Below, one piece after another: positions 4,024-21,221 of a stretch of 64,000 nt of DNA (positions within the stretch are counted from its first letter, which is position 1; the number at the start of each line of letters is the position of its first letter). The notes below the pieces were generated by a model. It was not told the origin of the DNA and did not search any database. It worked only from the letters and a program-made list of their open reading frames with translations. Both the position numbers and the translations under genes were made by a program. Origin of the DNA: Paenibacillus sp. JNUCC-31 (lineage in GTDB: Bacteria; Bacillota; Bacilli; Paenibacillales; Paenibacillaceae). Location of the stretch: NCBI RefSeq assembly GCF_014844075.1, contig NZ_CP062165.1, positions 2,852,001-2,916,000 of the forward strand, given 5' to 3'.

Positions 4024-4061
4024 CGCGGTACTCCTGACTTTTAAAATGGTTTTATTCACAT

Positions 4062-4237
4062 GTTAAAATTACAACTTTACACATCGACACTCCGTGCCAG
4101 AAGAATCTTACGATCGCTGTTATCCCCAGATTTTTTTGATCCTTTATTAAAGGGGTAAAATCCGGGGATAAAGGCGAGCGCTTCGCTTCTCCAGCTTTCT
4201 TCTGTCACTTCGTTCTTGTGTAAAAAATGAGTTTAAC
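4062..4237 (+). repeat. Dispersed structured intergenic repeat, copy 1 (176 bp)
   Basis: Bounded by GTTAAA and TTTAAC, with inner inverted ends TTTACAC and GTGTAAA. It shares with the copies at 6413-6669 and 20982-21212 the blocks CACTCCG, GATCGCTGTTATCCCCAGATTT (here split by positions) and the partner arm AAATCCGGGGATAA that folds back on TTATCCCCAGATTT. This copy is shorter, lacking part of the AGCTTTCTTTCAGAAAGCT palindrome. It lies between the nucleoside hydrolase gene and the PotB-like gene. Confidence 0.7.
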
Positions 4238-4245
4238 GCTCACAG

Positions 4246-5184
4246 CTACGCATTTAATGCGTTGATAAATAGTTCAAGGAAGGCTTCCGCGTCCACGGTC
4301 TCGCAGACGAGAGTGTTGGGCTGCTGGCCCAAACGATTTTGGAAGTCACATACCATCTGGCCATCGCACAATCGGCTGGCGGTTTCGACATCCACGTAAT
4401 ATGACTTGCGTCCAACGAGTTCCGGGGCTAGTGCGACGCCAACTGCCAGTGGATCATGCAGGGCACAGGCGCGTATCCCATTCATTTCTTCATACCGCTT
4501 GATGTAAATCTCCGTGCTCTGTGCCACATAATCACGTAATACCGGATCAGTTAACCGTCCAATGGCTTCTTCATTTAGCAACGTTTGACGGGTTACATCC
4601 AGACCTACTTGCGTGAGCTTCTCAAAGCCTGCATGCAGTACAATGCGTGCGGCTTCAGGGTCAGCATACGTGTTGTATTCGGCTGTCGGTGTAATGTTGC
4701 CATGTCCGCGTACGACGCCACCCATGAAGATAACTTCCTTCAATAATGTAGGTAGCTCAGGACATTTCATTAATGCCAGCGCCAGATTCGTTAACGGCGC
4801 GGTCATAATCAGTGTTAGCTCGCCTGGATACAACTTCGCTTGTTCAACGATAAAGTCTGGGGCGAAGCCTTCATCCGCCCGCTTGGACACCGCCGGATCA
4901 GGCAGCGCACCACCCAATCCGTCTTGTCCATGTACCCGGTGTTCATAGTGAGACTTGCGCGTGAGTGGGCCAGCCGCTCCGGCAATGACTGGAATGGAGG
5001 TCGCTCCGGCCAGTTCTAAAATTTTACATGTGTTATCCGTCGCCTGTTGGAGTGATACGTTCCCACAGACTGTGGTAATGCCGAGAATGTCCAGCTTCCG
5101 ACTCTTGACGGCCAGCAGAATTGCCAGCGCGTCATCTATACCGGTATCCACATCCAGAATGATGCGATTTCCTGTTTCACTCAT
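4246..5184 (-). CDS. Nucleoside hydrolase, IunH family
   Basis: Hydrolyses the N-glycosidic bond of nucleosides to free base and ribose, probably in the cytosol since no signal peptide is seen. 312 residues, normal for the inosine/uridine-preferring family. Seen: the calcium-binding motif DVDTGIDDA at residues 11-19, the NITPTAEYNTYADPEAA segment, and ALHDPLA with the active-site histidine near the C-terminal third. GAGGAG lies 10 nt before the ATG. Between the binding-protein gene and the permease genes it links import to catabolism: imported nucleoside would be split here and adenine deaminated by the Ade protein downstream. Exact base preference cannot be read from the sequence. Confidence 0.92.
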   Translation of the reverse strand: MSETGNRIILDVDTGIDDALAILLAVKSRKLDILGITTVCGNVSLQQATDNTCKILELAGATSIPVIAGAAGPLTRKSHYEHRVHGQDGLGGALPDPAVSKRADEGFAPDFIVEQAKLYPGELTLIMTAPLTNLALALMKCPELPTLLKEVIFMGGVVRGHGNITPTAEYNTYADPEAARIVLHAGFEKLTQVGLDVTRQTLLNEEAIGRLTDPVLRDYVAQSTEIYIKRYEEMNGIRACALHDPLAVGVALAPELVGRKSYYVDVETASRLCDGQMVCDFQNRLGQQPNTLVCETVDAEAFLELFINALNA

Positions 5185-5295
5185 GCATTCCCAACTCCTC
5201 TGCCGTTAAATGATTGCTTGCTGCAAATTTGGTTTGTCGAGCACAATCCATATCTCTACTGCCATTCAACCTCATCGTTCTAACGCTGATTAAGC

Positions 5296-6369
5296 TTATT
5301 GGGCAATTTCACGGTTCCAACGATCTGTCCATGCTTTGGCCTGTTGATTCACAAATTCCATATCCAGCTTGTTCAGCTTGCCAACCACGTCTGCACCATA
5401 CGTTACGCCTTCAGCTTCTTCAGCAGTCAATTCAACCTTCGTATTTACCGGGGAATCCACTTTGGCTTTAGCGGATTTGGCTTGTACATCCTGGCTCAGC
5501 TGCCAGTTGATGAATTCTTCAGCGAGTTCTTTGTTTTTGCTGCCTTTCACGACGTTGATCGTATTCATAACTGCATACGCACCCTCGCTAGGTGTAACAA
5601 ACTTCGCATTTGGCACAGCCGCTTTCAGATCTTTGAAGTACATTTCCATAATCGGTCCGCCAGCGATCTCTTCCTGGGAGAACATGTTCACGAATTCGGA
5701 AGTTTGAGTGTAGAATTTAACAACGTTGCCGCTTAATTTTTTAAGTTCCGCAAATGCTGCATCTTCATTAAATGTTTCGTTTCCGGCTACACGGGAAGCT
5801 GCATCCAATACCATTGGGCCTGCTGTTGCTGTAATGTTCGGAATGGTCAGGTTATTGGCAAATGCCGGGTCCCACAGATCAGACCATGAAGTCACTTCTT
5901 TGGAAACGAGGTCCGGGTTATAGGCGATTCCGAGCTGTCCAACCGTATAGGCCGGGCCGTAATCTTCGCCAAGCGGTGCTTTGGCAATATCATAAATATC
6001 GTTCACATTCGGAATTTTGGAGCGGTCGATTTTCTCAAACAAACCTTCATCGATGCCTTGCTGTGCATAGTAATCGGACAGATAGATCACATCGACATTG
6101 GATGTACCTTGGCGGATTTTGTTCAAACGCTCCGCGTTGTTACCCACTTCAAGTACGATGTCTACATTATGTTCTTTTTCAAATGGACCAAATACTTCTT
6201 CATTGAAGAAATCTTCCGAGAACCCCCAAGTGGAGATGACCAGTTTGGTTGGCGCCGTGCCCCCGCTGCCTGATCCGCCTGTTGCATTCTCTGTACTGCT
6301 GCCGCATCCTGCAAGTAATACCGATGTCATTGCCACTGCCGCCAAACCGCTAATCCACTTTTTCATCAT
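5296..6369 (-). CDS. Extracellular solute-binding lipoprotein, PotD-like
   Basis: Substrate-binding lipoprotein of an ABC importer, anchored outside the membrane. 357 residues. Seen: signal peptide MMKKWISGLAAVAMTSV followed by lipobox LLAGC with the lipidated cysteine near residue 22, a Ser/Gly linker, then LVISTWG at the start of the mature fold and the VDVIYLSDYY and GQLGIAYN segments typical of PotD-class proteins. GGGGG lies 9 nt before the first of two ATGs. It is the first gene of the minus-strand cluster and lies next to the nucleoside hydrolase. A polyamine substrate is possible from the fold; nucleosides or nucleobases are more likely from context. Confidence 0.9.
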   Translation of the reverse strand: MMKKWISGLAAVAMTSVLLAGCGSSTENATGGSGSGGTAPTKLVISTWGFSEDFFNEEVFGPFEKEHNVDIVLEVGNNAERLNKIRQGTSNVDVIYLSDYYAQQGIDEGLFEKIDRSKIPNVNDIYDIAKAPLGEDYGPAYTVGQLGIAYNPDLVSKEVTSWSDLWDPAFANNLTIPNITATAGPMVLDAASRVAGNETFNEDAAFAELKKLSGNVVKFYTQTSEFVNMFSQEEIAGGPIMEMYFKDLKAAVPNAKFVTPSEGAYAVMNTINVVKGSKNKELAEEFINWQLSQDVQAKSAKAKVDSPVNTKVELTAEEAEGVTYGADVVGKLNKLDMEFVNQQAKAWTDRWNREIAQ

Positions 6370-6412
6370 GATCCTATTCCCCCTAATATGTGTGTTTTAA
6401 CAACCCAAACCA

Positions 6413-6669
6413 TTAAGTTGAACTAGCTTGATATTCTCAACTAAAAATTTTACACAATAACGTAGAGGACAGAAAAAACCTGTAGAAGCGAAGCGTTCGC
6501 CTGAAAGCTTTCTGAAAGAAAGCTACTTCGGAAGCATACGCCTATTTCCGGATTTCACCCTTTCTAAATACCATCGAAGAAATCTGGGAATAATAGCGAT
6601 CGGAAGGTTGTTCTGTCATCGGAGTGCCAGTGTAAATCTTTGTTAGTCGGCTTATATAGTTCAACTTAA
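6413..6669 (-). repeat. Dispersed structured intergenic repeat, copy 2 (257 bp, inverted)
   Basis: Flanked by a perfect 13-bp inverted repeat TTAAGTTGAACTA / TAGTTCAACTTAA. Read on the minus strand it matches the copy at 20982-21212 over long blocks: CACTCCGATGACAGAACAAC, CCTTCCGATCGCT, AGCTTTCTTTCAGAAAGCTTT and TTCTGTCCTCTACGTT. The inner TTTACAC/GTGTAAA ends are kept. The internal hairpin arms differ from the other copies, with one base-pair exchange (C-G to T-A) and one mismatch. It fills the space between the terminator at 6668-6714 and the binding-protein gene. Confidence 0.75.
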
Positions 6670-6714
6670 AAAAACAAAAAGAAAAGCATTCTTGTATAAA
6701 CAAGAACACTTTTC
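6668..6714 (-). terminator. Rho-independent terminator after the MpsC-like gene
   Basis: On the minus strand a 14-bp stem with GAAAAG...TTCTTG and CAAGAATGCTTTTC arms around TTTATA is followed by TTTTTGTTTTTTT. It lies about 160 bp after the stop of the MpsC-like gene. The stretch 6715-6874 holds no gene that I can support. Confidence 0.85.
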
Positions 6715-6874
6715 TTCGTAAACAAAGGAAAGCGACACCCGCTGCCGGTACATCATCGGTTTCTGCTTCAGAATCAATCCGAAGACAGACGCCATCATAT
6801 GAAATTGTTTGTTCGGAATTAGAACCATGAACGGGAACCACGTACAACGCATGTATCGAACCAGTCGATCCATC

Positions 6875-7219
6875 CTATGCCTGTTCCAATATCACATTCG
6901 TAATGGCCCATTGCGTGGACGCATCATAATCCCGTAATACAGCTTCGATTGGCAAACCCATGTGTTGCTCCAACTTCTCCCTGAATTTCTTCTTATACAA
7001 GACAGACATGCGGAAGTCCACTTCCAGCTTCAAGCCGGGGGCCTCCCCTTCCAGGGCGTCAGAGCGCGGTGAACGTCGGTGCTTCGCGTAGAAGGTCACG
7101 ATGTTCTGATCAATGGTCACTCTCAGGAGAGTGGTCCCAAAGCCGAACAGTTCCTTCGAAATTTCGTTATAATACTGGCACATCTTCTTCTTGCTCTCAT
7201 TACTGTCCAGCAGTTCCAT
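6875..7219 (-). CDS. DUF2294 / MpsC-family protein
   Basis: Small soluble protein of 114 residues from the ATG at 7219 (a GTG four codons upstream also opens the frame; GGTGAG just before the ATG favours the shorter form). It shows the features of the DUF2294 family, called MpsC in staphylococci after a membrane-potential-generating system: N-terminal helix with YYNEISKELFGFG, the LLRVTIDQNIVTFYAK strand pair, and a second copy-like LEVDFRMSVLYKKKFR stretch. No MpsA/MpsB partner is nearby, so the name only marks the family. It has its own terminator and a perfect 12-bp palindrome upstream. Confidence 0.65.
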   Translation of the reverse strand: MELLDSNESKKKMCQYYNEISKELFGFGTTLLRVTIDQNIVTFYAKHRRSPRSDALEGEAPGLKLEVDFRMSVLYKKKFREKLEQHMGLPIEAVLRDYDASTQWAITNVILEQA

Positions 7220-7254
7220 GAACTCACCCACATCATTTACTACCGTACGTTCGA

Positions 7255-7266
7255 CGTGTTAACACG
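7255..7266. promoter_or_regulatory. 12-bp palindrome upstream of the MpsC-like gene
   Basis: CGTGTTAACACG is a perfect palindrome 35 bp before the MpsC-like start. It could be an operator. No partner site or matching promoter elements are obvious, so the role is a guess. Confidence 0.3.
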
Positions 7267-7422
7267 ATTGATTATACATATATCTACGATTTTAGGCAAC
7301 CCAAAAGATATAGTTAACATGTAAATAACACATAAAAGCGAACGATAGGTATAAACTAGCGAAAACAATTCGTAAATGTTCACCGTGAGCGCGCTTGGCG
7401 ATACCTGCATCCCTTTTCACTA

Positions 7423-10400
7423 TTATTGTTGCTTAAAAACCCATTTTTGATACTTGTTCTCTTGACGAAGCTCACCCATCACCAGTTCTGATCCATCCTC
7501 GGATATGCCGAGTGCGTGCCCGTTATGTGCATTTGTAATACGCATCGTCCCATCCTCATTCTTTGAAATGTTCCAGCGTTGATTCGCATAACCAAGATAC
7601 GAATAGAGCTGAATACGATTCTGTCCTACATCCCAATCAAGAGACATTCCACTCAAAGTTCGAATGGAGTAAGAGCCGGAATCATCGCCTGTCGGTACAA
7701 GTACCCATTTGAAGCCTTCACTTGCATTCTCTGTATTCTCAGCAACCTTTATCACTTCTCCTGCTTCAGATGGAACAGCCTGCAACGCAATAGAACGTCC
7801 TGTGTTACGAATTATCACCTGCTCCAGATCTGCTTTCTTCGTATGGATGGCATTCACATTCTGAAAGGAGACACTGCCACCAAATACATGAATTCCAAAA
7901 TGTCCTTCGGCGAACGTTCCATCCTGAAGATCCATTATTCGCTCACCGTTTACTTCAACCTGGATACGGGGACCGTCTGTTTGAATCCGGATGTGATACG
8001 TTTGATCCTTACGAATGAATCTTGGGATTTGGGCAAGCACCTGCCGATTTTCGATTTTCCCGTTCACTTTATAAAAAAGTCGGATGGCCTTCAGATTAGG
8101 GTCAATATTCAAATAATAGCCGCTTCGTCCATCCTCGCTGGCACGGAATACAATAGACCCCGCTCCCCCTTGAGCGCCCAGCGTCAGGTCAGCATCATAT
8201 TGAAAATCGCCTGCCGTTTCCTTTGCGATATACTGTGAATCTCCATTATGGCTGCCCTGTATGCCTTGTTTGGAAACAAGCCATTGGGCAGATGATTGAT
8301 CCGACTTCCAGCCAGACAAGTTGGTGTGGAATGTGCCGCTGGATACTGTAATCGGTATTTTGGCAGAAGCTTTGCCGTTAGCTGTCGATACCGTTACTAC
8401 TGCTTCGCCTCCACCCACGGCCCTAACCGTCGCTTGCGTCTTGCCAGAATGAACGATCTGCACCACTTTAGGATCGCTCACTTTCCATTTCAACGGTTGA
8501 ACACCTTTACCCAGTCCGCCCTCAACTGTGGCGTACAGGGTTTGAGTCTGCCCTATATTCGCCATCCTTCTTTGCACATCTGCAATAACCTGCGTCCTAG
8601 AGGACGTGCTCTTTCTCCAGATGTTGTCCAAGGCGTGCACCTTCATGGAGCTGACCTTCACTTCCCCACCAAGGCTATAGAACGACATTGCTCTGCCTGC
8701 CGGATCTGGAAAAATGACATCCGAGAAAACAACCTTGCCATCATTGCCGAAGACTTCAACAGAGGATTCATCTACAAATATGCGCAGCTTCACCTTTTGA
8801 TTTTCCGGTTGTAACGGGGCCTCATGAACCTTGGTAAATAGGTCGGAGAAGCTCACGTCACCCGAGGTGGTGCGATCCACAAACAGGTTCTGCTTATTCA
8901 CGCTGTATCCTACTGTGGTTTTCTGTCCTTCCCTTTTACGCAGTTGAAAACCGAACTCGGTTACAGGACTATTAGCCGGAATTTCCACTTCAGCTTCAAT
9001 CTCATAAGCCCCCGCTGTTAGACCATCAAGCATATTTTTTGATTTTGGTCCAACCAGCATTTGTTGTGCACTATACAGGTCGTGCCGCAGTGTCTGGAGC
9101 TCGGTGATTGGTGTTTGTACCAATCGCACTCCTTCATCCGTGGTTCGAAGCGATACTTCTCTCGGAATGGTCAGTTGTCCTTTCCAAGAGGAGGTTGGAA
9201 ATTCAAACGGGTAATCCCAATTCGTCATCCATGCAAGCATGACTTTCCGCTGGTCTGGCATATTTGCAAAGGACATCGATGCGTAGAACTCCTTCCCAAA
9301 GTCCGTTCTCAACACCTGCCCTGCTGGATAATCGTTCAGGAATTTCCCATCAGCTGTCAGCTGGCCTACAAAATATTCCGCATCAGAACCCTGGGTCTTG
9401 GGATTGGCCCCTGTACTGATCATAAGCACCCACTTACGCTGACCTGTTCCATCTACAGGCAGCTGAATCAGATCAGGACACTCCCATACACCACCACGAA
9501 CGTAGTCCCCGTATCCGAAGTTATCGGTTAATGTCCAATCGAGCAGATTCGTTGAAGTAAAGAACCGGATGTGATCGCCACCGGATACAACCATAATCCA
9601 GCGGTTGTTGTCTTCATCCCGAACGACCTTCGGATCACGAAAATCCCAACTCCCCGGATCATCACCTTTCTTGCCAGGGTTATCAATGACAATCGGACGA
9701 TCTTCAGCGTATTTCCAATTCCGGCCTTGATCGGTGCTGTAGGCAAGACCGATGCGCTGATTGCCACCCGGTTTATCCGGATGATGAGACGTGTAGTATG
9801 CAATCAGACCCTTACCACCCGAATCCGAGAATAGACCGGATGCATTATTAAGATCGGCAATAGCCGATCCCGACCATACATGGCCCTGATCATTCCATGG
9901 CAAGGCAATAGGTAAACGCTTCCAATTTATAAGATCAGAACTGACTGCATGAGCCCAAGTACCTCCATCCTGATGAAACAGATGATACTCTCCCTCGTAA
10001 TAGATCAGCCCGTTCGGATCGCTTGCCGATCCCCGAATCGGAGAATAATGGTACTGGGGACGATAGTTTTCCTTATAGTACGCCGACTCCTCGGTGATGT
10101 ATGTATCCTGAAAATAGGCCGTACCTTGTTGAACAACAAACCCTGCATGACCACTTGCATAACTTGTGTCCGTGACCTCCACAGCCGCCGGAGAATAACC
10201 ATCCATATACACCTGAATAAGGTCGACCGAGGCAATAACTTCAACGTGATGCTTCGCACCCGGTTGGCTTGGGTATGTTCGATCCGAGCTGGCGAGCACG
10301 GTACCATCAGCTTTTCGCAGCTGCACCCGAACTTCTTCCCCTTCCCTGATCAGGGCTGCTTCATACCCCCTCGCTCCGTCTGGACTCGCCCTGAATAACA

Positions 10401-11262
10401 GCCCTGCTGAGGTACTCGTATTTGCTAGAGATATATTCCCCTCATATACAAAATCAGACGCCGCCTTCTCGTAAATGACTCTTCCTTTGCCCTGAGCGTT
10501 TCCATTCCCTTTATAGCCTTTCAAATCCGGCTGCCATTCGCCTATGCTGCTCATCGGTTTGCCCATGTTGCCATTCATGGCACTGACCTGCACATTCTGG
10601 AACAAAGCCGCCCCATCCCATACATGGAGCCCCAGATTCCCTGATGAGTAGGCACCGTCCTTCACATCAATCACCGGGTCATACCGATTATCCCAATATA
10701 CCTGAAGGCTCTCCCCGTTCGCTTTCACTTTCAGATGATAGATACCTCCAGAATCCAGGCTTACTTTATGTTCTACATTTAACGTTCCCGGCTGTCCACT
10801 TGCATCTTTTAGACGTATCACACCAGCCTGGGGAATGACTTGCAGCATATATGAAGCCCAGCCTGTATCATTGGAGCGAAAAACAAGACTTGTATCCGCT
10901 TTCATATCCTGAATCATCAAGTCAGCTTCGTAGATAAAATTATCGGCTCGTGTGGCTGATATGGCTATCGCATTCTCCCCGGCATCTGAAGTCAGACGGA
11001 TTCCTTCATCCGTATCTTCCAGACTGCCTTTGCCCTCCATTCTCCAACCCGACAAATTCGTTACTGCCTTGGACACGTCCGACAATATGTCAGCCCCCTC
11101 CTCTGGTTGTTCTACGGTCGTTTCATTTGTTTCGGATGTTCCCTTTGCACCCATTGGCATCTCCCTACCCTCATCAGAATGGATGGAATACGCACCTACA
11201 GAAGCAGATCCGAGAACACTTAACAGCAAGACACACCCGATGAATCCCGAAATAAATTTCAT
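7423..11262 (-). CDS. Secreted multidomain GH32 fructan hydrolase (levanase/inulinase type)
   Basis: Exported enzyme of 1279 residues that would cleave levan or inulin outside the cell. Seen in order: signal peptide (1-25), two concanavalin-like lectin/LamG-type modules (about 55-230 and 240-395), GH32 five-blade catalytic domain with nucleophile D415 in SDPNG, transition-state D543 in FRDPK and acid/base E594 in WECPD, GH32 C-terminal beta-sandwich to about 880, a Big_2-like immunoglobulin fold (about 890-975), a third lectin-like module and a C-terminal ricin-type beta-trefoil. Odd: the usual WMN before DPNG is replaced by SAS. GAGGG lies 6 nt before ATG. It has its own transcript, since a terminator precedes it. 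Exo or endo action and levan versus inulin preference cannot be decided. Confidence 0.9.
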   Translation of the reverse strand: MKFISGFIGCVLLLSVLGSASVGAYSIHSDEGREMPMGAKGTSETNETTVEQPEEGADILSDVSKAVTNLSGWRMEGKGSLEDTDEGIRLTSDAGENAIAISATRADNFIYEADLMIQDMKADTSLVFRSNDTGWASYMLQVIPQAGVIRLKDASGQPGTLNVEHKVSLDSGGIYHLKVKANGESLQVYWDNRYDPVIDVKDGAYSSGNLGLHVWDGAALFQNVQVSAMNGNMGKPMSSIGEWQPDLKGYKGNGNAQGKGRVIYEKAASDFVYEGNISLANTSTSAGLLFRASPDGARGYEAALIREGEEVRVQLRKADGTVLASSDRTYPSQPGAKHHVEVIASVDLIQVYMDGYSPAAVEVTDTSYASGHAGFVVQQGTAYFQDTYITEESAYYKENYRPQYHYSPIRGSASDPNGLIYYEGEYHLFHQDGGTWAHAVSSDLINWKRLPIALPWNDQGHVWSGSAIADLNNASGLFSDSGGKGLIAYYTSHHPDKPGGNQRIGLAYSTDQGRNWKYAEDRPIVIDNPGKKGDDPGSWDFRDPKVVRDEDNNRWIMVVSGGDHIRFFTSTNLLDWTLTDNFGYGDYVRGGVWECPDLIQLPVDGTGQRKWVLMISTGANPKTQGSDAEYFVGQLTADGKFLNDYPAGQVLRTDFGKEFYASMSFANMPDQRKVMLAWMTNWDYPFEFPTSSWKGQLTIPREVSLRTTDEGVRLVQTPITELQTLRHDLYSAQQMLVGPKSKNMLDGLTAGAYEIEAEVEIPANSPVTEFGFQLRKREGQKTTVGYSVNKQNLFVDRTTSGDVSFSDLFTKVHEAPLQPENQKVKLRIFVDESSVEVFGNDGKVVFSDVIFPDPAGRAMSFYSLGGEVKVSSMKVHALDNIWRKSTSSRTQVIADVQRRMANIGQTQTLYATVEGGLGKGVQPLKWKVSDPKVVQIVHSGKTQATVRAVGGGEAVVTVSTANGKASAKIPITVSSGTFHTNLSGWKSDQSSAQWLVSKQGIQGSHNGDSQYIAKETAGDFQYDADLTLGAQGGAGSIVFRASEDGRSGYYLNIDPNLKAIRLFYKVNGKIENRQVLAQIPRFIRKDQTYHIRIQTDGPRIQVEVNGERIMDLQDGTFAEGHFGIHVFGGSVSFQNVNAIHTKKADLEQVIIRNTGRSIALQAVPSEAGEVIKVAENTENASEGFKWVLVPTGDDSGSYSIRTLSGMSLDWDVGQNRIQLYSYLGYANQRWNISKNEDGTMRITNAHNGHALGISEDGSELVMGELRQENKYQKWVFKQQ

Positions 11263-11330
11263 GGCATACCCTCTTTTCTTTTAATTGACCATGCACATCC
11301 ATATCTCACACCTCTATACCACAGATACCA

Positions 11331-11391
11331 AAAATCCAAAAAGGGGCACCATACAGTTCCTTATGCAAAATAAGTAACCTGTACCTGCCCC
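11331..11391 (-). terminator. Terminator after the fructokinase gene
   Basis: Read on the minus strand, GGGGCA pairs with TGCCCC around an inner imperfect stem (GGTACAG / CTGTATGG and TTACTTA / TAAGGAA), followed by TTTTTGGATTTTT. It separates the fructokinase transcript from the secreted GH32 gene, which therefore needs its own promoter in 11263-11330. I see no clear one. Confidence 0.7.
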
Positions 11392-11417
11392 TCCTGAGAT
11401 GTAGCTTGATTCACAAA

Positions 11418-12311
11418 CTATGAAACAGACGCCGCCGAATGTTGCAGTGCTTCCAACCCCAGCGCAACGGCCCCGCACAGTCCAGCCTGTTGTCCAAGTC
11501 CCGGCGGTACAATGTATTGGTCGATATGTTCCGTGATCTGAGCTGCATTCACATAACCATTCAGATTTCGCACAACCCGCTCCCTAATCATGGGGAACAG
11601 ATGAGCCTGCTGCATCACACCACCGCCTAATATCACCTTCTGCGGAGAGTGAAGGAGAATGGAAGACGTAATGGCCTCAGCCAGATAAAAGGATTCCATC
11701 GCCCACGCAGGGTGATCCACAGCCAATTCACTGCCATTTCGCCCCCAGCGGGCTTCAATTGCGGGGCCTGCTGCCATTCCCTCCAGACAATCACCATGAT
11801 AGGGGCATAATCCATGATATGGGTCATCCGGGTGCCTTCTCGTCATGATGTGACCACCCTCCGGGTGCATCAATCCGTGTACCCGTTTCCCTTCTGCAAT
11901 CAGACCAATCCCAACCCCTGTGCCAATCGTGTAGTATACACAGCTGTGCAATCCTTGGGCTGCTCCCCATTTGAGTTCACCAAGGGCAGCCGCGTTTACA
12001 TCGGTATCCCAACCAATCGGAACGGGGAACTCGCGTCGAAGAGTCCCTACAACATTACAATTCCCCCAACCCGGCTTGGGTGTCGTTGTGATATAACCAT
12101 AGGTCGGGCTATCTTTCCGAAGATCAATTGGACCGAAGGAACCAATCCCGATCGCTGTTACCCCTTTATCCCTAAAATAGTCAACAGCCTTCAAAAGTGT
12201 CCTATCCGGATGTTCCGTTGGGAAACTGATCCTGTCCTGAATAACTCCGTGTTCATCGCCAATACCACAGACGAACTTCGTTCCGCCCGCTTCAATCGCC
12301 CCTATGCGCAT
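11418..12311 (-). CDS. Fructokinase, ROK family
   Basis: Phosphorylates fructose released by the cytoplasmic GH32 enzyme to fructose-6-phosphate. 297 residues, usual for the ScrK/GmuE group. Seen: phosphate-binding EAGGTKFVCGIG near the N-terminus, catalytic-loop aspartate in GWDTDVNAAALGE, second glycine-rich motif TIGTGVGIG, and the ROK zinc site HPEGGH with CPYHGDC. The gene starts 27 nt after the stop of the GH32 gene, so both are on one transcript. Related ROK kinases act on glucose or mannose; the neighbours favour fructose. Confidence 0.9.
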   Translation of the reverse strand: MRIGAIEAGGTKFVCGIGDEHGVIQDRISFPTEHPDRTLLKAVDYFRDKGVTAIGIGSFGPIDLRKDSPTYGYITTTPKPGWGNCNVVGTLRREFPVPIGWDTDVNAAALGELKWGAAQGLHSCVYYTIGTGVGIGLIAEGKRVHGLMHPEGGHIMTRRHPDDPYHGLCPYHGDCLEGMAAGPAIEARWGRNGSELAVDHPAWAMESFYLAEAITSSILLHSPQKVILGGGVMQQAHLFPMIRERVVRNLNGYVNAAQITEHIDQYIVPPGLGQQAGLCGAVALGLEALQHSAASVS

Positions 12312-12338
12312 GACTCGTTCCTCCTTGCTCTCATCCGC

Positions 12339-13811: not shown

Positions 13812-13901
13812 TATGGTTTCTCCTCCATTTAAGCTTGGATGAGGGGACAATGCATTGGCTTAAAATCAAACTAGCACAGCCCCTGTTTTCCACCCGTTGT
13901 T

Positions 13902-15515
13902 TTATTTATTATTGCGGTCATATCCCGCTTGTTTAATCTGAAGCCATTCTTGCAAGCCAAGACGATCCAACTCTTTCAGATAAGCGTCCCACTCCTGATC
14001 GATCTTCCCATTCTGATACCACTCAGTACGCATCCGCAGCACGTAAGCAAAAAGATCCGTTTCAATCGTAGACAAACGATCTAATTCATCGATGGAGAAG
14101 AACACGCTTGGATACACGTTTTCCGCTTTCATGTGTGGAACCATGTATTTATCCAGGAGATCCATGCGCCATGCGGCATCTTCTGGCTTGGTTGTGTATT
14201 TGCCATAGTAGCTGTCGAGAATCGCCAGTGGTCCTGCAATACTCGTTTTCTGTCTGAGCTCTACAGGTGCAGCGCCTTTCAGCGGCAGATGTTTCAGCAT
14301 GCCTTTGGCTTCATCGAATTCAAAGATATTCTGTTGAGTTTCATCCCCATATGTCCCCCAGTTGTCCTGGACGGATTGGAGTGGATCATATAACTGATCT
14401 ACCCACTTTGCAGTGGATTCCAGGTTTTTGTTGCTGCTCGTAATCACCATGCGTCCCCGGTCAAGTCCGATGCCATTGGTTCTTGTTACATTGACTTCCC
14501 CTGTTGGCCCTGCTACCGGAGGCATTACATCGTAGGTATCGTTCATGCCCGTAATGTTAGCCTTATCCCAGGTGAAGTACATGCCGTATTTTTGATCTTT
14601 TCCTTTGGCCAGATAGGTGTTCCAATCTTGTTGATAAGCCTCCACATCAACGAGACCTTCCTGAACCAGTTCGTGGATGTATTTGATCGCTTCCTTGTAG
14701 CCTTCATCAGCTGCCGTGAATACCACTTTGCCATCGTTGGTCACCACGGTATGATCCCAGTTCTCCCCGAGTCCAAATGCCGCAAAGAGGAATGTCAAGT
14801 CTTCACCACCGGGTTTGTTAATGAAAGACAGCGGAATTTCGTCTGCCTTGCCATTGCCATTCGGGTCCTGGGTTTTGAACGCAATCAGCACTTTCTTCAG
14901 TTCTTCGGTTGTCGTTGGCATCTTCAGTCCAAGCTTGTTCAGCCACTCCACGTTGATCCAGGGCAAGTCGTCCACCGCCTGTATGCGCTGCTTGCCACTG
15001 CCGAGCTCCTCAATCCAGGGAAAGGAATAAATATGTCCGTCTGGAGCTGTAATCATGCTCTTGTATTCGGGAGCTTCCTCCAGTACCTTTTTCAGATTGG
15101 GCATATGTTGCTCAATCAGGTCCTCCAGTGGAATGATGGCCCCGTCCTTCGCCAGTTTCAGGAGCTCATAATCCGTATAAGCCGCGTCAAAAATGGCATC
15201 TGGCAAATCACCGCTGGCTACCGCCAGGTTCCTTTTTTCCTTAAACACATCACTCGTATAGTTCTTCCAGTTGATATGCACGTTGGTTTTCTCTTCGAGT
15301 CTCTTGTTAATCAGCTTCTCGTTCGGGTCAGCAGGGGCCAGCGGAGAGCTCTGTGTTATAAAATTCAATGTCACTTTGCCATCAGGTGACTGGGCTTCGC
15401 TGGCTGCACCGCCCTCTGCCCTACCACCACCACATGCCGAGAGCAGCAGCATGGCAGACAGCATGGAGATGGATGCCGTTGTAACGGCTTTTCTGGACTT
15501 TTTCACTTTTTTCAT
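13902..15515 (-). CDS. Extracellular solute-binding lipoprotein, LplA/LipO-like
   Basis: Binds oligosaccharides outside the cell and hands them to the two permeases upstream in the operon. 537 residues, long as usual for the LipO group found with LplB/YtcP permeases. Seen: basic N-terminus MKKVKKSRK, hydrophobic stretch, lipobox LLSAC near residue 27, then FITQSSPLAPADPNEKL at the start of the mature domain. The frame opens earlier, but GGAGG followed by an 8-nt spacer selects the ATG at 15515. No ATPase gene lies in the operon; in this transporter class a shared MsmX-type ATPase encoded elsewhere usually supplies energy. Substrate is inferred as fructo-oligosaccharide from the GH32 neighbours. 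Confidence 0.88.
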   Translation of the reverse strand: MKKVKKSRKAVTTASISMLSAMLLLSACGGGRAEGGAASEAQSPDGKVTLNFITQSSPLAPADPNEKLINKRLEEKTNVHINWKNYTSDVFKEKRNLAVASGDLPDAIFDAAYTDYELLKLAKDGAIIPLEDLIEQHMPNLKKVLEEAPEYKSMITAPDGHIYSFPWIEELGSGKQRIQAVDDLPWINVEWLNKLGLKMPTTTEELKKVLIAFKTQDPNGNGKADEIPLSFINKPGGEDLTFLFAAFGLGENWDHTVVTNDGKVVFTAADEGYKEAIKYIHELVQEGLVDVEAYQQDWNTYLAKGKDQKYGMYFTWDKANITGMNDTYDVMPPVAGPTGEVNVTRTNGIGLDRGRMVITSSNKNLESTAKWVDQLYDPLQSVQDNWGTYGDETQQNIFEFDEAKGMLKHLPLKGAAPVELRQKTSIAGPLAILDSYYGKYTTKPEDAAWRMDLLDKYMVPHMKAENVYPSVFFSIDELDRLSTIETDLFAYVLRMRTEWYQNGKIDQEWDAYLKELDRLGLQEWLQIKQAGYDRNNK

Positions 15516-15595
15516 GATCATGACCTCCGTGGATTGTGTTGGGTCGAACTTTTCCATTTATAGTGGGTCAAACGTGCTGTATCTCAGGCTGCTCA

Positions 15596-16477
15596 CTATT
15601 TGAGTGAACCTACCATGACACCTTTTTCGAAATATTTCTGAAAGAACGGATACATGATGATGAGCGGCAGACTCGAAATGACAATGGCTGAATATTTGAT
15701 CATCTCCGAGAGCCGTTTCAATTCCGCCATCGCAAGCTGATCACTGATCATGCCAGGCGCGGCCTGGTTCTGAATCAGAATGGAACGCAGAACAAGCTGC
15801 AGCGGATGGAGATTCGGATTATCCAGATAGATCATGGCGTCAAAATAGGAATTCCACTGCCCTACAAACGCGTACAACGCAAGTACAAAAATGATGGGTT
15901 TCGATAGCGGAATGACGATCTGGAAGAAAATCTTCATCTCGGAGGCACCATCCACATTGGCGGCCTCTTTCAACTCTCGAGGGACCCCTTTGAAGAAGGT
16001 TCTGGAGAGAATGATGTTCCAGACGTTAACCGCTCCCGGAATGATAATGGCCCACACCGTATCCAGCATGCCGAGACTGCGCACGAGCAGATAGGTTGGG
16101 ATCAATCCGCCGCCGAAGAACATCGTAATGATAAAGATAATCATGAAAAATCCTCGTCCGGCCAATCTGTCATCCGAGAGGGCATAACCTGCAAATATCG
16201 AAACGGTAACCGTCAACAAGGCAAAGGACACAGAGTAAAGCACGGCATTTCCAAAACCTCGGATCATGGCCGGATTGGATAGAATCATCTGATAACCGTC
16301 CAGGCTCCAGTCGGATACATTGAAGGACAGTCCGCGGTTCAGTAGCACAGTCGGATCCATGAATGAGGCAATAACGATATAAATCAGGGGAACGACAACC
16401 ACGAGTACTGCACATGTGAGAAATATGGCATTCAACGTAAGAATCAGGCGATCCATTCCCGTATGCTTAACAACCAT
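15596..16477 (-). CDS. Carbohydrate ABC transporter permease, YtcP-like
   Basis: Inner-membrane permease of 293 residues with six hydrophobic segments. The ATPase-contact loop is seen as ELKEAANVDGASEMKIFFQIVIPLSKP (cited in part) around residues 175-195, and the C-terminus ends in YFEKGVMVGSLKG-like residues, a hallmark of YtcP/LplC permeases. It starts 18 nt after the partner permease gene, and the lipoprotein gene follows 80 nt after its stop, giving the common order LplB-YtcP-LipO. Function: second half of the channel for fructan fragments. Confidence 0.88.
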   Translation of the reverse strand: MVVKHTGMDRLILTLNAIFLTCAVLVVVVPLIYIVIASFMDPTVLLNRGLSFNVSDWSLDGYQMILSNPAMIRGFGNAVLYSVSFALLTVTVSIFAGYALSDDRLAGRGFFMIIFIITMFFGGGLIPTYLLVRSLGMLDTVWAIIIPGAVNVWNIILSRTFFKGVPRELKEAANVDGASEMKIFFQIVIPLSKPIIFVLALYAFVGQWNSYFDAMIYLDNPNLHPLQLVLRSILIQNQAAPGMISDQLAMAELKRLSEMIKYSAIVISSLPLIIMYPFFQKYFEKGVMVGSLK

Positions 16478-16494
16478 GGGTATAACTCCTTTCT

Positions 16495-17460
16495 TTAATA
16501 GAGGCCTTCGCCTTCATTCAATTTCTTAACAATCAGGTTCACCGTCACTAGCAGGATGACGTTAATTACCGAGTTAAACAATCCCACTGCCGCAGAGTAA
16601 GCATAATCCCCTGATTGAAGTCCCACCTTATAAACGTAGGTTGCAATGATCTCCGAGGAAGGTAGGTTCATCGAGGTTTGCATTAGATATGCCTTCTCGA
16701 AGCCAATAGACATAATTCCACCCGCAGCAAGGATAAACACGATGGCCATAATCGGACGGATCGTCGGCAGGTCAATATGCCGAATGCGTTGGAGGAGATT
16801 GGCCCCATCCAGATTGGCTGCATTATGAAGTTCCGGATCGACATTGGCCAGTGCGGCAACGTAGATAATCGAAGCCCAGCCTGCCCCGGTCCAGATATCG
16901 GATAAAATGTAGATCCAGCGGAAATATTCAGGTTCAGACATGAACATGATCGGCTGTCCAGTAATCCAGGTTGCAAGCTGATTCAAAGGCCCGGTTGGGG
17001 AGAGGAAGATAAATAGCATCCCCACAACAACGACGACCGAAATAAAATTGGGGGCGTAGAGAAACAATTGAATCCTCTTCTTCACCCCGGCCTTGCGTAC
17101 CTGATTCAGCATTAGTGCAAGCAGAATGGGTACCGGGAAGCTGAAAATCAAACCAAAGAAGCTGAGCTTAAGCGTATTCATAAAGATGACATCGAAATTG
17201 GGCGAAGCCAAAAACTTCTCGAAATTCTTCAATCCTACCCAATCACTGCCCATAATACCCTTGATTGGACTGAAATCCTTAAATGCGATAATGGCTCCAT
17301 ACATCGGGATGTATTTGAAGACAAGAGTCAGGATCAGAGCTGGTGCAAGCAACAAATATAAAAAGTAATTCTTCTTGAGTTGCTGCAACTTGTAGCTGGT
17401 TGATGTCCTCTCTTTCAGCACCCTTCCCGTACCCTTTTTGTTGTCCACTGCGTTATCCAA
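16495..17460 (-). CDS. Carbohydrate ABC transporter permease, LplB-like
   Basis: First gene of the fructan operon, a membrane permease of about 321 residues. Six hydrophobic segments are seen after a charged 30-residue N-terminus, with KYIPMYGAIIAFKDF near residue 57, a motif found in LplB-type permeases, and the ATPase-contact loop ELHNAANLDGANLLQRI. An ATG opens the frame at 17478 without a ribosome site; GGAGG inside that stretch lies 7 nt before a TTG at 17460, so TTG is the more likely start. It is divergent from the LacI gene and would be repressed by it through the sites at 17524-17812. Confidence 0.85.
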   Translation of the reverse strand: MDNAVDNKKGTGRVLKERTSTSYKLQQLKKNYFLYLLLAPALILTLVFKYIPMYGAIIAFKDFSPIKGIMGSDWVGLKNFEKFLASPNFDVIFMNTLKLSFFGLIFSFPVPILLALMLNQVRKAGVKKRIQLFLYAPNFISVVVVVGMLFIFLSPTGPLNQLATWITGQPIMFMSEPEYFRWIYILSDIWTGAGWASIIYVAALANVDPELHNAANLDGANLLQRIRHIDLPTIRPIMAIVFILAAGGIMSIGFEKAYLMQTSMNLPSSEIIATYVYKVGLQSGDYAYSAAVGLFNSVINVILLVTVNLIVKKLNEGEGLY

Positions 17461-17523
17461 CGTGTTACCTCCGTTCATTACTTAAGTTGACAATTGTTTG
17501 TAGTAAGGGCTTTCAATATTTAC

Positions 17524-17540
17524 AATTGCTCATTTGATAA
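17524..17540. promoter_or_regulatory. Candidate LacI operator, copy 1
   Basis: AATTGCTCATTTGATAA lies directly downstream of the -10 box of the fructan operon promoter, where a bound repressor would block initiation. It matches the copies at 17594 and 17796 (core ATTGTGCATTTG) at most positions. Confidence 0.5.
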
Positions 17541-17546
17541 TTTACA

Positions 17547-17575
17547 ATTTAACAGGAAATACAGGCGTTAGTCAA
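17547..17575 (-). promoter_or_regulatory. Predicted promoter of the fructan uptake operon
   Basis: On the minus strand -35 TTGACT (17575-17570) and -10 TTAAAT (17552-17547) are separated by 17 bp. The predicted transcript start falls about 80 nt before the TTG start of the LplB-like gene and inside or next to operator copy 1. Confidence 0.55.
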
Positions 17576-17593
17576 TACATTTTGTAAAAAAAT

Positions 17594-17610
17594 AATTGTG
17601 CATTTGATGA
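17594..17610. promoter_or_regulatory. Candidate LacI operator, copy 2
   Basis: AATTGTGCATTTGATGA sits 19 bp upstream of the -35 box of the minus-strand operon promoter. It shares AATTG-(T)-GCAT-TTGAT with copy 1 and AATTGTGCAT with copy 3. Confidence 0.5.
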
Positions 17611-17795
17611 TATATTCGTATGTTTTTGTACTGAGTGTCCATAAAATTGCATATATAACGTTTATCAAATTCCCTAAAATTGTCCCTACCCTTAATAGCA
17701 GTAAGAAAACAGGAAAAATTGATTACAACATCATTTGTAACAGGACTCCTAAATACATACAAAAAGCGATATTACTAAATTTAAAATGTAAATAA

Positions 17796-17812
17796 AATTG
17801 TGCATATGTAAA
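17796..17812. promoter_or_regulatory. Candidate LacI operator, copy 3
   Basis: AATTGTGCATATGTAAA lies 89 bp before the LacI start, within the expected lacI promoter region, which suggests autoregulation. The spacing to the other copies would allow looping by a tetrameric repressor. Confidence 0.5.
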
Positions 17813-17900
17813 ATTAAATTGCTATTTGCCTCGATCTATTATACATTTGACTTAGATACTAATATGGACGACCATTTGATCATTAGAGGTGAAATGCTAG

Positions 17901-18962
17901 ATGGCAAAAGAAAAGGTCACGATACAGGACATCGCGGATGCTTTGGGCATCTCTAGGAATACGGCTTCCAAAGCATTGAATGACAGCGGAAATATCCCGG
18001 AAGAGACACGAAATCGTGTAATCAAAAAAGCAATTGAACTTAAATATAAACAATTCGCCTATATGGACAGTGAGCATGTTCTAACCAAAGCTCAAAGCAA
18101 TATCGCCCTCTTAACCGAAAACCTGCCCAATACATCTCACTTCGGCTCGTTGTTGATTAGCGGGTTGGAGAAAAGAATCAGTGCGGAGGGATACAATCTC
18201 TCCATTCATATCGTGCGTGACGTGGATCAGGAATCACTTACACTTCCCAACAATTTTGATATATCCAACGTGGACGGGATCATTTGCATTGAACTATTTG
18301 ATCTGGAATATACCCGTCTTATCACCGATCTGGGGATTCCCACGATCTTTATTGATTGCGCCTCCAACGTATGTTATCCGGATTTTCATGCGGATCTGCT
18401 GCTGATGGAGAATGAACACAGCACATACCAGTTAACCAAAAAATTAATTGAGAGCGGCTACAAAAGTATCGGATTTGCCGGGGATTACAATCACTGCAAG
18501 AGTTTTAATGAACGATGGGTTGGATATCACCGGGCGATGCTGGAATCGGGGTTGCAGGTCGATCTGTCCCAATGCATCGTGGATGATGATCGCCTGTTTT
18601 TCTCCAGGCCGGGATGGATGAACCTGAGAGTTGCAGAGATGGAGTCCTTCCCTTCCGCTTATGTATGCGCCAATGACTTCATCGCGGTCGAACTGATCAG
18701 GGCTTTGAAAGCGAAAAATGTTACAGTCCCACAGGATATTGTGGTATGCGGATTCGATAATGCTCCCGAATCACGAATTATTGAACCCGCTTTAACAACG
18801 GTTCATATCTACAGCACTGAAATGGGCATCAAGGCTGCGGAGATGCTGTTATCCCGGATTGATAACCCGTCACAGCCTTATCAGGTCGCGCACATTGTGA
18901 CCAAACCAATCATACGGGAGTCCACGCCTACGATTATGAGGGCCAATCCACAGACCATCTAA
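17901..18962 (+). CDS. LacI-family transcriptional regulator
   Basis: Sugar-responsive DNA-binding repressor, 353 residues, typical LacI length. Seen: N-terminal helix-turn-helix TIQDIADALGISRNTASKAL at residues 7-26 with the hinge region after it, then a periplasmic-binding-protein fold of about 280 residues containing NVDGIICIELFD and VCGFDNAPES near the C-terminus. AGAGGTGA precedes the ATG. It is transcribed away from the fructan operon and is the obvious controller of it; three repeated motifs in the shared intergenic region are candidate binding sites. A GalR/LacI regulator of another sugar is less likely given the position. Confidence 0.9.
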   Translation: MAKEKVTIQDIADALGISRNTASKALNDSGNIPEETRNRVIKKAIELKYKQFAYMDSEHVLTKAQSNIALLTENLPNTSHFGSLLISGLEKRISAEGYNLSIHIVRDVDQESLTLPNNFDISNVDGIICIELFDLEYTRLITDLGIPTIFIDCASNVCYPDFHADLLLMENEHSTYQLTKKLIESGYKSIGFAGDYNHCKSFNERWVGYHRAMLESGLQVDLSQCIVDDDRLFFSRPGWMNLRVAEMESFPSAYVCANDFIAVELIRALKAKNVTVPQDIVVCGFDNAPESRIIEPALTTVHIYSTEMGIKAAEMLLSRIDNPSQPYQVAHIVTKPIIRESTPTIMRANPQTI

Positions 18963-18995
18963 CCCAAGATATATTTTCTCTCTGCAAAACAAATA

Positions 18996-19039
18996 ACCGT
19001 GTCCTTCACGAGCCATTCGTCGTAAAGGATACGGTTTTC
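18996..19039. terminator. Bidirectional terminator between lacI-type gene and efeU
   Basis: ACCGTGTCCTT pairs with AAGGATACGGT across a 18-nt centre that itself pairs partly (ACGA/TCGT). A T-run follows on the plus strand (TTTTCTT) and TTATTTGTTTT follows on the minus strand. It serves two converging genes. Confidence 0.7.
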
Positions 19040-19044
19040 TTGAA

Positions 19045-20937
19045 TTACAGAGATGCCTTGGATGCTCCTTGGGCTGAACGTACCTCCGTACGAATCAGAT
19101 TAAAGATCATGAAGACCAGCACAACCATTTGTGGGATAAATGTCTCCCATGTCGGATACATGCCAAGCCAGCCAATCGTCGGCAGACTCGGTGCAACATG
19201 AGCCCCCAGCGCCGCTGAGACTTGAAGGGAGTGAATACTCTCGCCAAGGAAACGAAAGACCAGATAATATATCAGCAGCGTAGCGGTCAGGAAAAACCAT
19301 CGTACAGGCAGGCGTACACTGAACTGAATAATCGCCACAGCCAATACCATCAGGATAAGCAACGCTCCCCCCATACCGATCAATAGTTGCGAGGTCGCAA
19401 TCGCAGGCGCCATGCCGATATAAAAGATTGCGGTCTCCGCTCCTTCACGCAATATGGCAAGACCCGCCACAGCGAAGAGTGACCACAGACTTCCCCGGGC
19501 CAGCGCACCGCCTACCTGTCGATGTACATAGCTATTCCAGGAGCGGGTATTCGACTTGCTATGCATCCATTGTCCAACCGTTAACATCAGTACAACCGCT
19601 GCAAGCCCCGTATACCCCTCAATCATCTCCCGTGTGCTGCCCGAAGATGCCACAGCAAGAGTCAGTGTCAGTACAACTGCCAGCGCCCCACTGAGCAGCA
19701 AACCACTACCGGCACCAGCCCAGATCCAGCGCCGGGCCGCAGTCTCTCCACTCTTCTTGGCATAGGCCAGCAATGCAGCCAGTACCAGAATGGCTTCCAG
19801 TCCTTCGCGAAGTAGAATCAATGCTGCATCCCATGCATTGTATGAGGTGGTAGTCGTTAACGGCTCCAGCCGATTGATCATTCGGGAAACAACCTCGGTA
19901 GCCTTCGCCGTATTAGGCGGGTTGGAGACGACATAACCGGATGCTTCCGCCATTTCATTCTCAATAGCCGTATATGAAGCCGGAGATGATATCTGTACCT
20001 GACCTTCAACCAAAGGCCAGGCCACGATAAACTGCTCCAATCCCGCTGCGCCAGAAGTGGTATCCCCCGCCTGAATCTGCTGCTCTATTTGCTCCAGTAA
20101 TTTCAGCAGGTCGGACAATGAAGAAACGTCAGAGGATGCTGCCGGGTCCTCAATTTCCCCTTCCTTAAGTGTCCCTGCACTGTAGTCCGCGAGCAGCGTG
20201 ACCAGGTTCTGCATATGCTCGGTTGCCTGTTCTTCCTTGCGGGGCTCAGCCTGCATTGAAATGCGAACCAGGCTAATGTCTTTCTCCAACTGGCTGTATA
20301 CGCCAAAATGATCCTGACGAATTGGAGCTTCGGTGCCTTTCCAGGCCGTAACGATCCGTTTATAGGCAAGCTCTGCCTGTTTCCAATCGCCCTGTTCCAT
20401 TGCACTTAAACTTTTACGTGCGTCCGGCAACAACCGTTCAGCCGCTCTACGGCCTGCGTCGCTGCTCTCTTCCGCACCCTGAAACGCCTCAATATACTGA
20501 TTGGTCGCACGGGCCAGATCGGCCAGTGCTTTCTTGGCTGCATCAGGATCATTGCCAGACAGTGCCTGTTCTGCTTTGGTCATGGCATCACTTACAACGC
20601 TGGCGGCCGTCGCAACCTGATCTGCATTCTGCTCGGGCACCAGCGTACTGGCGTCATCCCACAGTTGCCGGAATTCGGCGACGTCCTCTGTTGCTTCTGC
20701 CAGCTTGCCCTGTCCCGCTTCAACCAAGGCGCTGCCCACAGGCGGCAATAGGCCATCCAATTGTTTTTGCACAGACTGCTCCCTGTTTGGGAACCCCTCA
20801 GCAGAAGCATATGGAATGCCCAGTAAACGAACTCCCCCGGCCCCCACCATCAGGAACACCAGCAGCAGCAGCACGGGGCGCATCAACCTTCCTTTGTACC
20901 GCCACTTCTGCGCCTTCCGATCCGCGATCCTGCCCAT
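19045..20937 (-). CDS. efeU: EfeU/FTR1-type iron permease with long extracytoplasmic N-terminal region
   Basis: High-affinity iron permease that moves iron oxidised or delivered by EfeB and EfeO. 630 residues. Seen: signal/anchor helix (about 18-38), a helical extracytoplasmic region of some 330 residues, then seven-helix FTR1 core with the two REXXE motifs, REGLE near residue 377 and REGAE near 499. FTR1 proteins are often shorter; the N-terminal region belongs to the longer Bacillus-type variant. AGGAGG overlaps an upstream ATG too closely, so the next ATG at 20937, 9 nt after it, is the likely start. It is last in the order efeO-efeB-efeU and is separated from efeB by repeat copy 3. Confidence 0.9.
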   Translation of the reverse strand: MGRIADRKAQKWRYKGRLMRPVLLLLVFLMVGAGGVRLLGIPYASAEGFPNREQSVQKQLDGLLPPVGSALVEAGQGKLAEATEDVAEFRQLWDDASTLVPEQNADQVATAASVVSDAMTKAEQALSGNDPDAAKKALADLARATNQYIEAFQGAEESSDAGRRAAERLLPDARKSLSAMEQGDWKQAELAYKRIVTAWKGTEAPIRQDHFGVYSQLEKDISLVRISMQAEPRKEEQATEHMQNLVTLLADYSAGTLKEGEIEDPAASSDVSSLSDLLKLLEQIEQQIQAGDTTSGAAGLEQFIVAWPLVEGQVQISSPASYTAIENEMAEASGYVVSNPPNTAKATEVVSRMINRLEPLTTTTSYNAWDAALILLREGLEAILVLAALLAYAKKSGETAARRWIWAGAGSGLLLSGALAVVLTLTLAVASSGSTREMIEGYTGLAAVVLMLTVGQWMHSKSNTRSWNSYVHRQVGGALARGSLWSLFAVAGLAILREGAETAIFYIGMAPAIATSQLLIGMGGALLILMVLAVAIIQFSVRLPVRWFFLTATLLIYYLVFRFLGESIHSLQVSAALGAHVAPSLPTIGWLGMYPTWETFIPQMVVLVFMIFNLIRTEVRSAQGASKASL

Positions 20938-20981
20938 CTTTGTCATCCTCCTCATTCCTCTGAAACCGTTCAGTGCCGTCA

Positions 20982-21212
20982 ATATAAATTGAACTAAAGA
21001 TTATTTACACTTGCCACTCCGATGACAGAACAACCTTCCGATCGCTGTTATCCCCAGATTTATAGATTTCTATTTTTCAATGGGAAAAATCCGGGGATAA
21101 ATGCGAGGTGAATGCTTCCGATGCAGCTTTCTTTCAGAAAGCTTTTAGTTCCGCTGCTTCAGGTTATTTCTGTCCTCTACGTTCTCGTGTAAATGTTTAG
21201 TTCAATCTATAT
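20982..21212 (+). repeat. Dispersed structured intergenic repeat, copy 3 (231 bp)
   Basis: Ends are a 17-bp inverted repeat with one mismatch (ATATAAATTGAACTAAA / TTTAGTTCAATCTATAT). Inside lie TTTACAC/GTGTAAA, a GACAGAA/TTCTGTC pair, the hairpin TTATCCCCAGATTT / AAATCCGGGGATAA and the palindrome AGCTTTCTTTCAGAAAGCT. It begins 9 nt after the efeB stop codon and ends 44 nt before the efeU start codon, so efeU can only be cotranscribed with efeB through this element. Confidence 0.8.
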
Positions 21213-21221
21213 AACTATTTA

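Follow-up and report, generated by a model that had tools for sequence, protein, structure and literature searches.

The goal of this analysis was to follow up a repeat family in a window of 64,000 nucleotides from Paenibacillus sp. JNUCC-31 (contig NZ_CP062165.1, positions 2,852,001 to 2,916,000), the window being the whole stretch of DNA analysed. Three related intergenic copies lie in it and are called copies 1, 2 and 3 in the order of their positions. They share a folded core, which is a structured element older than the shell of inverted repeats found around some copies and extends far beyond that shell. Copies 2 and 3 carry the ends of a miniature inverted-repeat transposable element (MITE) of the IS630 type, and copy 1 is a core without such ends. 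Our preferred reading, which we consider probable, is that an old, order-wide structured core is in Paenibacillus partly carried as an IS630-type MITE, in which it is tolerated or useful cargo.

The three copies were mutually alignable, as the sequence-only reading of the window had proposed. A profile derived from 30 copies in the same genome, copies 2 and 3 among these, matched copy 1 at 4062-4245 (+ strand, E 1.6e-35), copy 2 at 6426-6655 (- strand, E 6.1e-57) and copy 3 at 20983-21215 (+ strand, E 1.6e-69). A covariance model recovered all three cores with E 5.5e-18 or better, copy 1 being one of the 33 sequences from which the model was built. For copy 3, the folding z-scores were -6.79 on one strand and -7.90 on the other, and none of 200 shuffled sequences folded as well. 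The family is far bigger than the three members first described. Searching the genome (a single contig of 7,551,121 bases) with copy 3 yielded at least 54 matches (40 candidates scored), and the core covariance model gave 124 rows at E ≤0.01. After 20 rows taken as opposite-strand echoes of the palindrome were subtracted, at least 104 distinct copies were counted; this is a lower bound because scoring covered 150 of the 2583 first-look candidates.

The core comprises ~125 nt. Between its outer helix P1 and its inner helix P2 lies a conserved internal loop, the two sides of which carry CCGATCGCTGTT and AAAGGCGAACGCTnCGCTTCTnCAG, respectively. In copy 1, a short form located at 4079..4219 (+) by alignment, profile, covariance model and end scan, the arms of P2 are TTATCCCC (5' arm, 4120..4127, +) and GGGGATAA (3' arm, 4164..4171, +), as read from the sequence and the model pairs, and sequence and conservation place one side of the loop, GGCGAGCGCTTCGCTTCTCCAG, at 4173..4194 (+). 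Covariation was far above the level of shuffled alignments. In a MAFFT alignment of 33 copies, double changes were found at 20 of 30 pairs (80 cells vs 17.7 shuffled; slid versions ≤15). Among 70 copies taken outside the window genome, in part from its own genus, 26 of 30 pairs showed double changes (407 cells vs 96.8 ± 11.5 shuffled; slid versions ≤121), in an alignment that was fitted to the model, unlike the MAFFT alignment. Nearly all double changes were Watson-Crick. The internal loop was nearly invariant across 53 copies (MAFFT alignment). The motif CGCT occurred on one strand at a mean of 4.0 per core vs 0.66 in shuffled letters; 34 of the 53 cores had it four times or more on that strand, and 41 of 53 lacked it on the opposite strand. 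Strand specificity therefore holds for the loops, even if it does not for the stems.

Searches with the core found it in most sampled genomes of the order. The family, order and class samples were scored with stricter filters and limited candidate numbers; under these settings the core was present in 47/59 genomes and 13/19 genera of the family sample, and in 83/119 genomes and 20/34 genera of the order sample. In the class sample it was found in 12 of 151 genomes, all within the window's family. All of 15 genomes from other families contained the core, having been chosen because the order-sample search had found it there. In distant genomes it occurred without IS630-type ends and with different stem sequences. 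Rfam gave no match for the whole window at the gathering cut-off or for six core loci at E up to 1, and a known Rfam family was thus rejected. An intrinsic terminator was also rejected, as a scan of 3700-7500 for GC-rich hairpins with a T run behind them placed no such site inside copies 1 and 2.

The shell is best seen in copy 3, a complete MITE of 229 bp (20983..21211, +; long form) as judged from profile, ends and empty site. Its left terminal inverted repeat is TATAAATTGAACTA (20983..20996, +) and its right one lies at 21198..21211 (-), both from sequence and end scan. The site reads GCCGTC-AA-element-TA-AC in the window genome, and it is empty in P. pabuli (L032; GCCATC-TA-AC) and P. xylanivorans (L077; GCGATC-TA-AC); the target is therefore TA, which is also the target of IS630 elements. 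By these two empty sites, the right target copy, TA, is located at 21212..21213 and the left one at 20981..20982, where AA stands in place of the expected TA. Copy 2, a long form too (profile, 6426..6655, -; core 6454-6633 by covariance model), is enclosed less cleanly by the same type of ends, TATAAGTTGAACTA. The outer repeats that the sequence-only reading had assigned to two copies are indeed those of copies 2 and 3; in copy 2, TTGAACTA was located at 6418..6425 (+) and TAGTTCAA at 6658..6665 (+) by sequence and end scan. With respect to ends of this type, copy 3 has 2 + 2 mismatches and copy 2 has 2 + 4. In copy 1 none were found within 5 mismatches, and it was not classed as a MITE. The inner repeat TTTACAC/GTGTAAA is present in all three copies. 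Copy 2 stands at a composite site, at which P. taichungensis NC1 (L031) and P. pabuli (L032) hold different sequence between similar TTGAACTA outer ends; the target duplication with an empty site was seen for copy 3 only. Eleven copies were compared for the bases flanking the ends; G stands on the right in 8, and C (4) or T (5) on the left, which is compatible with a CTAG preference and no proof of it.

When all 104 copies of the genome were scanned for ends of the type TATATAAGTTGAACTA...TAGTTCAACTTATATA with ≤4 mismatches (reversed control, 3/208 ends), both ends were recognised in 24, one in 25 and none in 55. No transposase gene lies inside the window copies, as had been noted before. An autonomous partner was looked for in the window genome and not found: no DDE_3 transposase exceeded the Pfam cut-off, and one weak match was obtained. 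Full-length elements with the same ends, proposed earlier as something to search for, do exist in other genomes of the genus. DDE_3 was above the cut-off in 19 of 75 genomes of the genus sample, and 6 of 30 loci with an IS630 domain (L156-L185) had clear ends of the same type 1135-1171 bp apart (L158, L159, L163, L177, L178, L179; genomes G006, G045, G052 and G067, all of the same genus). Weaker end pairs were seen at L168, L169 and L174 of these loci, and a single end at L162. The NCBIfam model of IS630 transposases matched the proteins of L178 and L159, with one of two pieces from L178 scoring below the cut-off. We assign copies 2 and 3 to the IS630 type because of their ends, the empty TA site, and the IS630 elements with such ends elsewhere; what distinguishes them from IS630 itself is that they lack a transposase gene. 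The transposase frame was split across two overlapping frames in L178, L179, L158 and L163, an arrangement common in the IS630 family. Internally shortened elements were also observed, at L141:1557-1652 (~96 bp, both ends), at L148:516-644, and in L196 and L197.

Other inverted repeats enclose the core in a few genomes. Against a null of flanks swapped among copies, flanking inverted repeats exceeded the 99% level in 13 of 79 copies outside the window genome and in 17 of 72 within it. Of the 13, two were IS630-type (L125, L240) and several were possibly unrelated hairpins. Clear cases of another shell are G181, with GGCTCAACACTAAAATAAG...CTTATTATTGTTTTGAGCC (L357 above the level, sister copies by eye), and G144, with AGAGCGTGTTCAAAA...TTTTGAACACGCTCT (L350). 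G125 (L245) is a likely further case; in G174 and G190 the inverted ends are shorter and no more than suggestive. The end sequence AGAGCGTGTTCAAAA had 43 matches in G144 vs 6 in the reversed control, and no inward-facing pair at insertion-sequence length was found within a contig of this fragmented assembly.

Copies were then related to neighbouring genes, as called by a home-made codon-usage gene caller and not taken from annotation. The reference orientation of the core is called q and its reverse complement rc(q). Among the 104 copies of the window genome, 84 have co-directional neighbouring genes, 10 divergent and 10 convergent ones, and 4 overlap a predicted gene. The sense strand was rc(q) in 72 of the 84 co-directional copies (p 1.4e-11), and the bias was present in copies with two ends (17/22), one end (20/21) and no end (35/41). 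Eight of the 12 exceptions, which include copy 2, are located ≤46 nt past a stop codon. Outside the window genome, 79 of 82 loci were used, the other three being without gene calls; the split into same-genus and other-genus loci was read from tables and scores, in which not every locus of the order sample is itemised. In other genera and families, orientation followed the gene at 27 of 35 loci (p 0.0019). Two tandem pairs and an orthologous triple are among these 35, and counting each of them once gave 24/31 (about p 0.003). The median distance from the core edge to the next start codon was 63 nt, and 39 of 71 sense tandem copies had both genes within 130 nt. Downstream proteins were diverse in the 20 of 52 that we chose for a Pfam search: transport proteins, enolase, a histidine biosynthesis protein, L-arabinose isomerase, the small chain of carbamoyl-phosphate synthase, a DEAD helicase and others, one being without a match. 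The bias points to transcription. An orientation set by replication was rejected, since 7 of 9 copies at lagging-strand genes follow the gene direction (few cases, with the origin assumed near 3.5 Mb on the basis of gene direction).

Orthologous sites allowed changes to be read in place. Groups V1 (its two copies without module M, an extra hairpin, only), V2, D and g12, whose flanks are 81-98% identical, were compared together with window sites 1 and 2. At site 1 the core stands at the same place, in differing forms, in L031, L032, L033, L035, L037 and L077, two of which are P. taichungensis strains. Stem columns varied at 17/353 and unpaired columns at 83/481 (p 1.9e-8) without the comparison of the window with L031, and at 27/412 vs 117/561 with it. 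As stem columns are less variable, and yet changed pairs were single-sided or broken in 22 cases vs 1 compensatory case, constraint acts in place and compensated diversity lies between families of copies. The double change from C-G to T-A in copy 2, to which the sequence-only reading had drawn attention, exists; an adjacent G is changed to A as well, which breaks one pair, and the P. xylanivorans orthologue (L077) keeps both pairs. A single ancestral functional locus was examined as a candidate in G166, G169 and G188, which have one copy each at one common locus, and was rejected: 7 of 29 stem pairs were single-sided or broken and none was compensated.

We propose that within Paenibacillus part of the family would move as a non-autonomous MITE with ends of 14-16 bp and TA as its target, probably mobilised in trans by an IS630 transposase now absent from the window genome. 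The core may be cargo that different small transposons took up, and this cargo would allow insertions between co-transcribed genes to be tolerated or to be of use. Its role would most likely be played during passing transcription, where a stable mRNA hairpin could expose AGCG boxes for binding or cutting by a host factor; alternatively, a DNA hairpin or cruciform might act as transcription passes.

Several results weigh against this proposal. Two IS630 ends were recognised in 24 of 104 copies only, and 55 have no recognisable end; some of these look like decayed MITEs and others form another subfamily. A cleanly empty site was read at one site only. The orientation bias in the same-genus sample outside the window genome was just 9/12 (p 0.15). 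Other shells are rare, and part of the 13 of 79 is IS630-type or doubtful; for G144, whose ends were the sole other ones searched for an autonomous partner, none was found. The excess of single-sided or broken over compensatory changes at orthologous sites (22 vs 1) belongs here too.

Of the alternatives, a serious though tentative one is that the core is an order-wide nucleic-acid device without a tie to any single transposon. A host factor would then recognise this two-helix element with its nearly invariant internal loop and up to ~5 CGCT boxes on one strand, and several unrelated miniature transposons would have acquired the core and thereby a harmless life between co-transcribed genes. 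Alternatively, the family might comprise ordinary IS630-type MITEs only, with the core as leftover filler and the end-less copies as decayed MITEs. The IS630 ends and the partner elements agree with this, many end-less copies of the window genome retain TTTACAC...GTGTAAA and traces of GTTGAAC, and RUP offers a precedent with IS630-like ends (PMC3049150). We nevertheless regard it as quite unlikely, given a core that mostly lacks IS630 ends where it occurs in other families of the order, a loop that is nearly invariant while the stems change and stay paired, and the occurrence of the core within other inverted repeats in a few genomes. Pairing that arose without selection, by template switching from one palindrome arm to the other, which the double changes with few intermediates could reflect, is highly improbable, as it would leave unexplained both the nearly invariant loop across the order and the 22 vs 1 changes at orthologous sites.

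Whether the core acts as RNA or as DNA was addressed by wobble counts, as selection on RNA only predicts more G·U than A·C on the acting strand. With a single structure for both strands, 41 G·T and 56 A·C were counted on q among ~4,000 pairs, after removal of partial and duplicate rows (103 to 78 and 118 to 72) and of two pairs, a constant T·G column and a badly paired column; with both pairs restored, the sums on q were 212 G·T and 80 A·C. In S-adenosylmethionine (SAM) riboswitches of the same order, used as control (24 distinct sequences), the count was 56 G·U and 6 A·C, so wobble is clearly rarer in the core. When the strands were folded separately, q gave 18 G·U and 22 A·C, and the sense strand rc(q) 56 and 27 (p 0.002); this would speak for RNA, although the fold differs. 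A cis-acting RNA of leaders or intercistronic spacers on strand rc(q), such as a processing site, a stabiliser, or a ribozyme-like or protein-binding motif, could account for the sense-strand count, the orientation along transcription, the short distance to the next start codon, the positions upstream of genes similar to enolase, his, araA and carA, and the conserved loop bases, one-strand boxes and stems constrained in place. The single-structure count, so different from that of the SAM riboswitches, and the lack of an Rfam relative make it somewhat doubtful. Slightly less credit is given to the DNA reading, in which a hairpin or cruciform formed by the core would serve movement, recombination or the organisation of the chromosome, with the orientation of the core reflecting single-stranded DNA exposed during transcription. 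Wobble that is about equally rare on either strand under the single structure, nearly exclusive Watson-Crick double changes and the head-to-tail copies in G172, G190, G151 and G028 are consistent with it; the sense-strand fold points to RNA instead, and the transposase identified as the mover belongs to the DDE enzymes, which should not need an internal hairpin. Thus, where the sequence-only reading had left a choice between a MITE and a structured RNA, the MITE-type shell of copies 2 and 3 and the structured core both stand, and RNA as such is not established.

Correia elements share the TA target, and enterobacterial ERIC sequences are imperfect palindromes of ~127 bp. Bacteria commonly carry small structured repeats, which to our knowledge have each been linked to a single transposon family and a single group of species. 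The following comparisons were made by description only, from the parts of the cited texts that were available. Correia or NEMIS repeats of Neisseria are short and intergenic with inverted ends, and are cut by RNase III once transcribed (PMC10969869, PMC2649163); the present core differs in spanning an order and in occurring in more than one shell. ERIC sequences have many intergenic copies (PMC10969869) and an orientation-dependent effect on transcripts (PMC3049150), but belong to a different lineage, whereas the core has an insertion sequence family with matching ends in one genus. RUP of Streptococcus pneumoniae, a MITE whose ends resemble an IS630 element, is 107 bp long and described as simple, the available text mentioning no conserved internal loop (PMC3049150). 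The repeats bcr1-bcr18 of the Bacillus cereus group are intergenic, some MITE-like and some with conserved secondary structure, and 84/165 and 62/155 copies were transcribed in two strains (PMC3446304); they lie outside the order of the window genome. In the Paenibacillus literature, as covered by titles and abstract openings and with most subscription journals outside that coverage, such an element was not described. A folded core shared by most of the genomes sampled in an order, and enclosed there by transposon ends of more than one kind, provides a natural experiment on the use of a cargo to element or host, and many copies lie within ordinary operons of culturable soil bacteria (e.g., upstream of genes similar to enolase, his and araA).

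The blocks said to be shared by all three copies were so in part: AGCTTTCTTTCAGAAAGCT is confined to copies 2 and 3, and copy 1 has CACTCCGTGCCAGAA in place of CACTCCGATGACAGAA. The former is module M, which was located from the sequence at 6506..6524 (-) in copy 2 and at 21125..21143 (+) in copy 3. It shortens the model match of the copy 3 core to 21007-21149; by anchors, this core reaches ~21188. Twenty of the 104 cores of the genome carry the module, and it was absent outside cores in ~410 kb examined. At one orthologous site it is absent in L187:9213-9353 and L192:6795-6935 and present in L188:4471-4648 and L190:4250-4428, and other copies carry it at a second position within the core. Copy 1 lies between an ABC permease gene (3202-4059, -) and a nucleoside hydrolase gene (4246-5184, -); copy 3 is flanked by genes for a Dyp-type peroxidase and an FTR1 iron permease (Pfam).

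With one 185-base copy as query, phage records gave no match and plasmid records one, on a 2.7 Mb Paenibacillus replicon (48% cover). An exact 22-base pattern was found in 13 stretches of viral_contigs, and the contigs L186-L198, classed there as viral, bear the core repeat; these stretches are probably host DNA beside prophages. Head-to-tail tandem cores were observed in G172 (L339, L349, L359 and neighbours, three of them at ~145 bp spacing), G190, G151 and G028. Gene direction near the copies of the window genome switches around 3.5 Mb of the contig, which suggests a replication origin near the contig middle.

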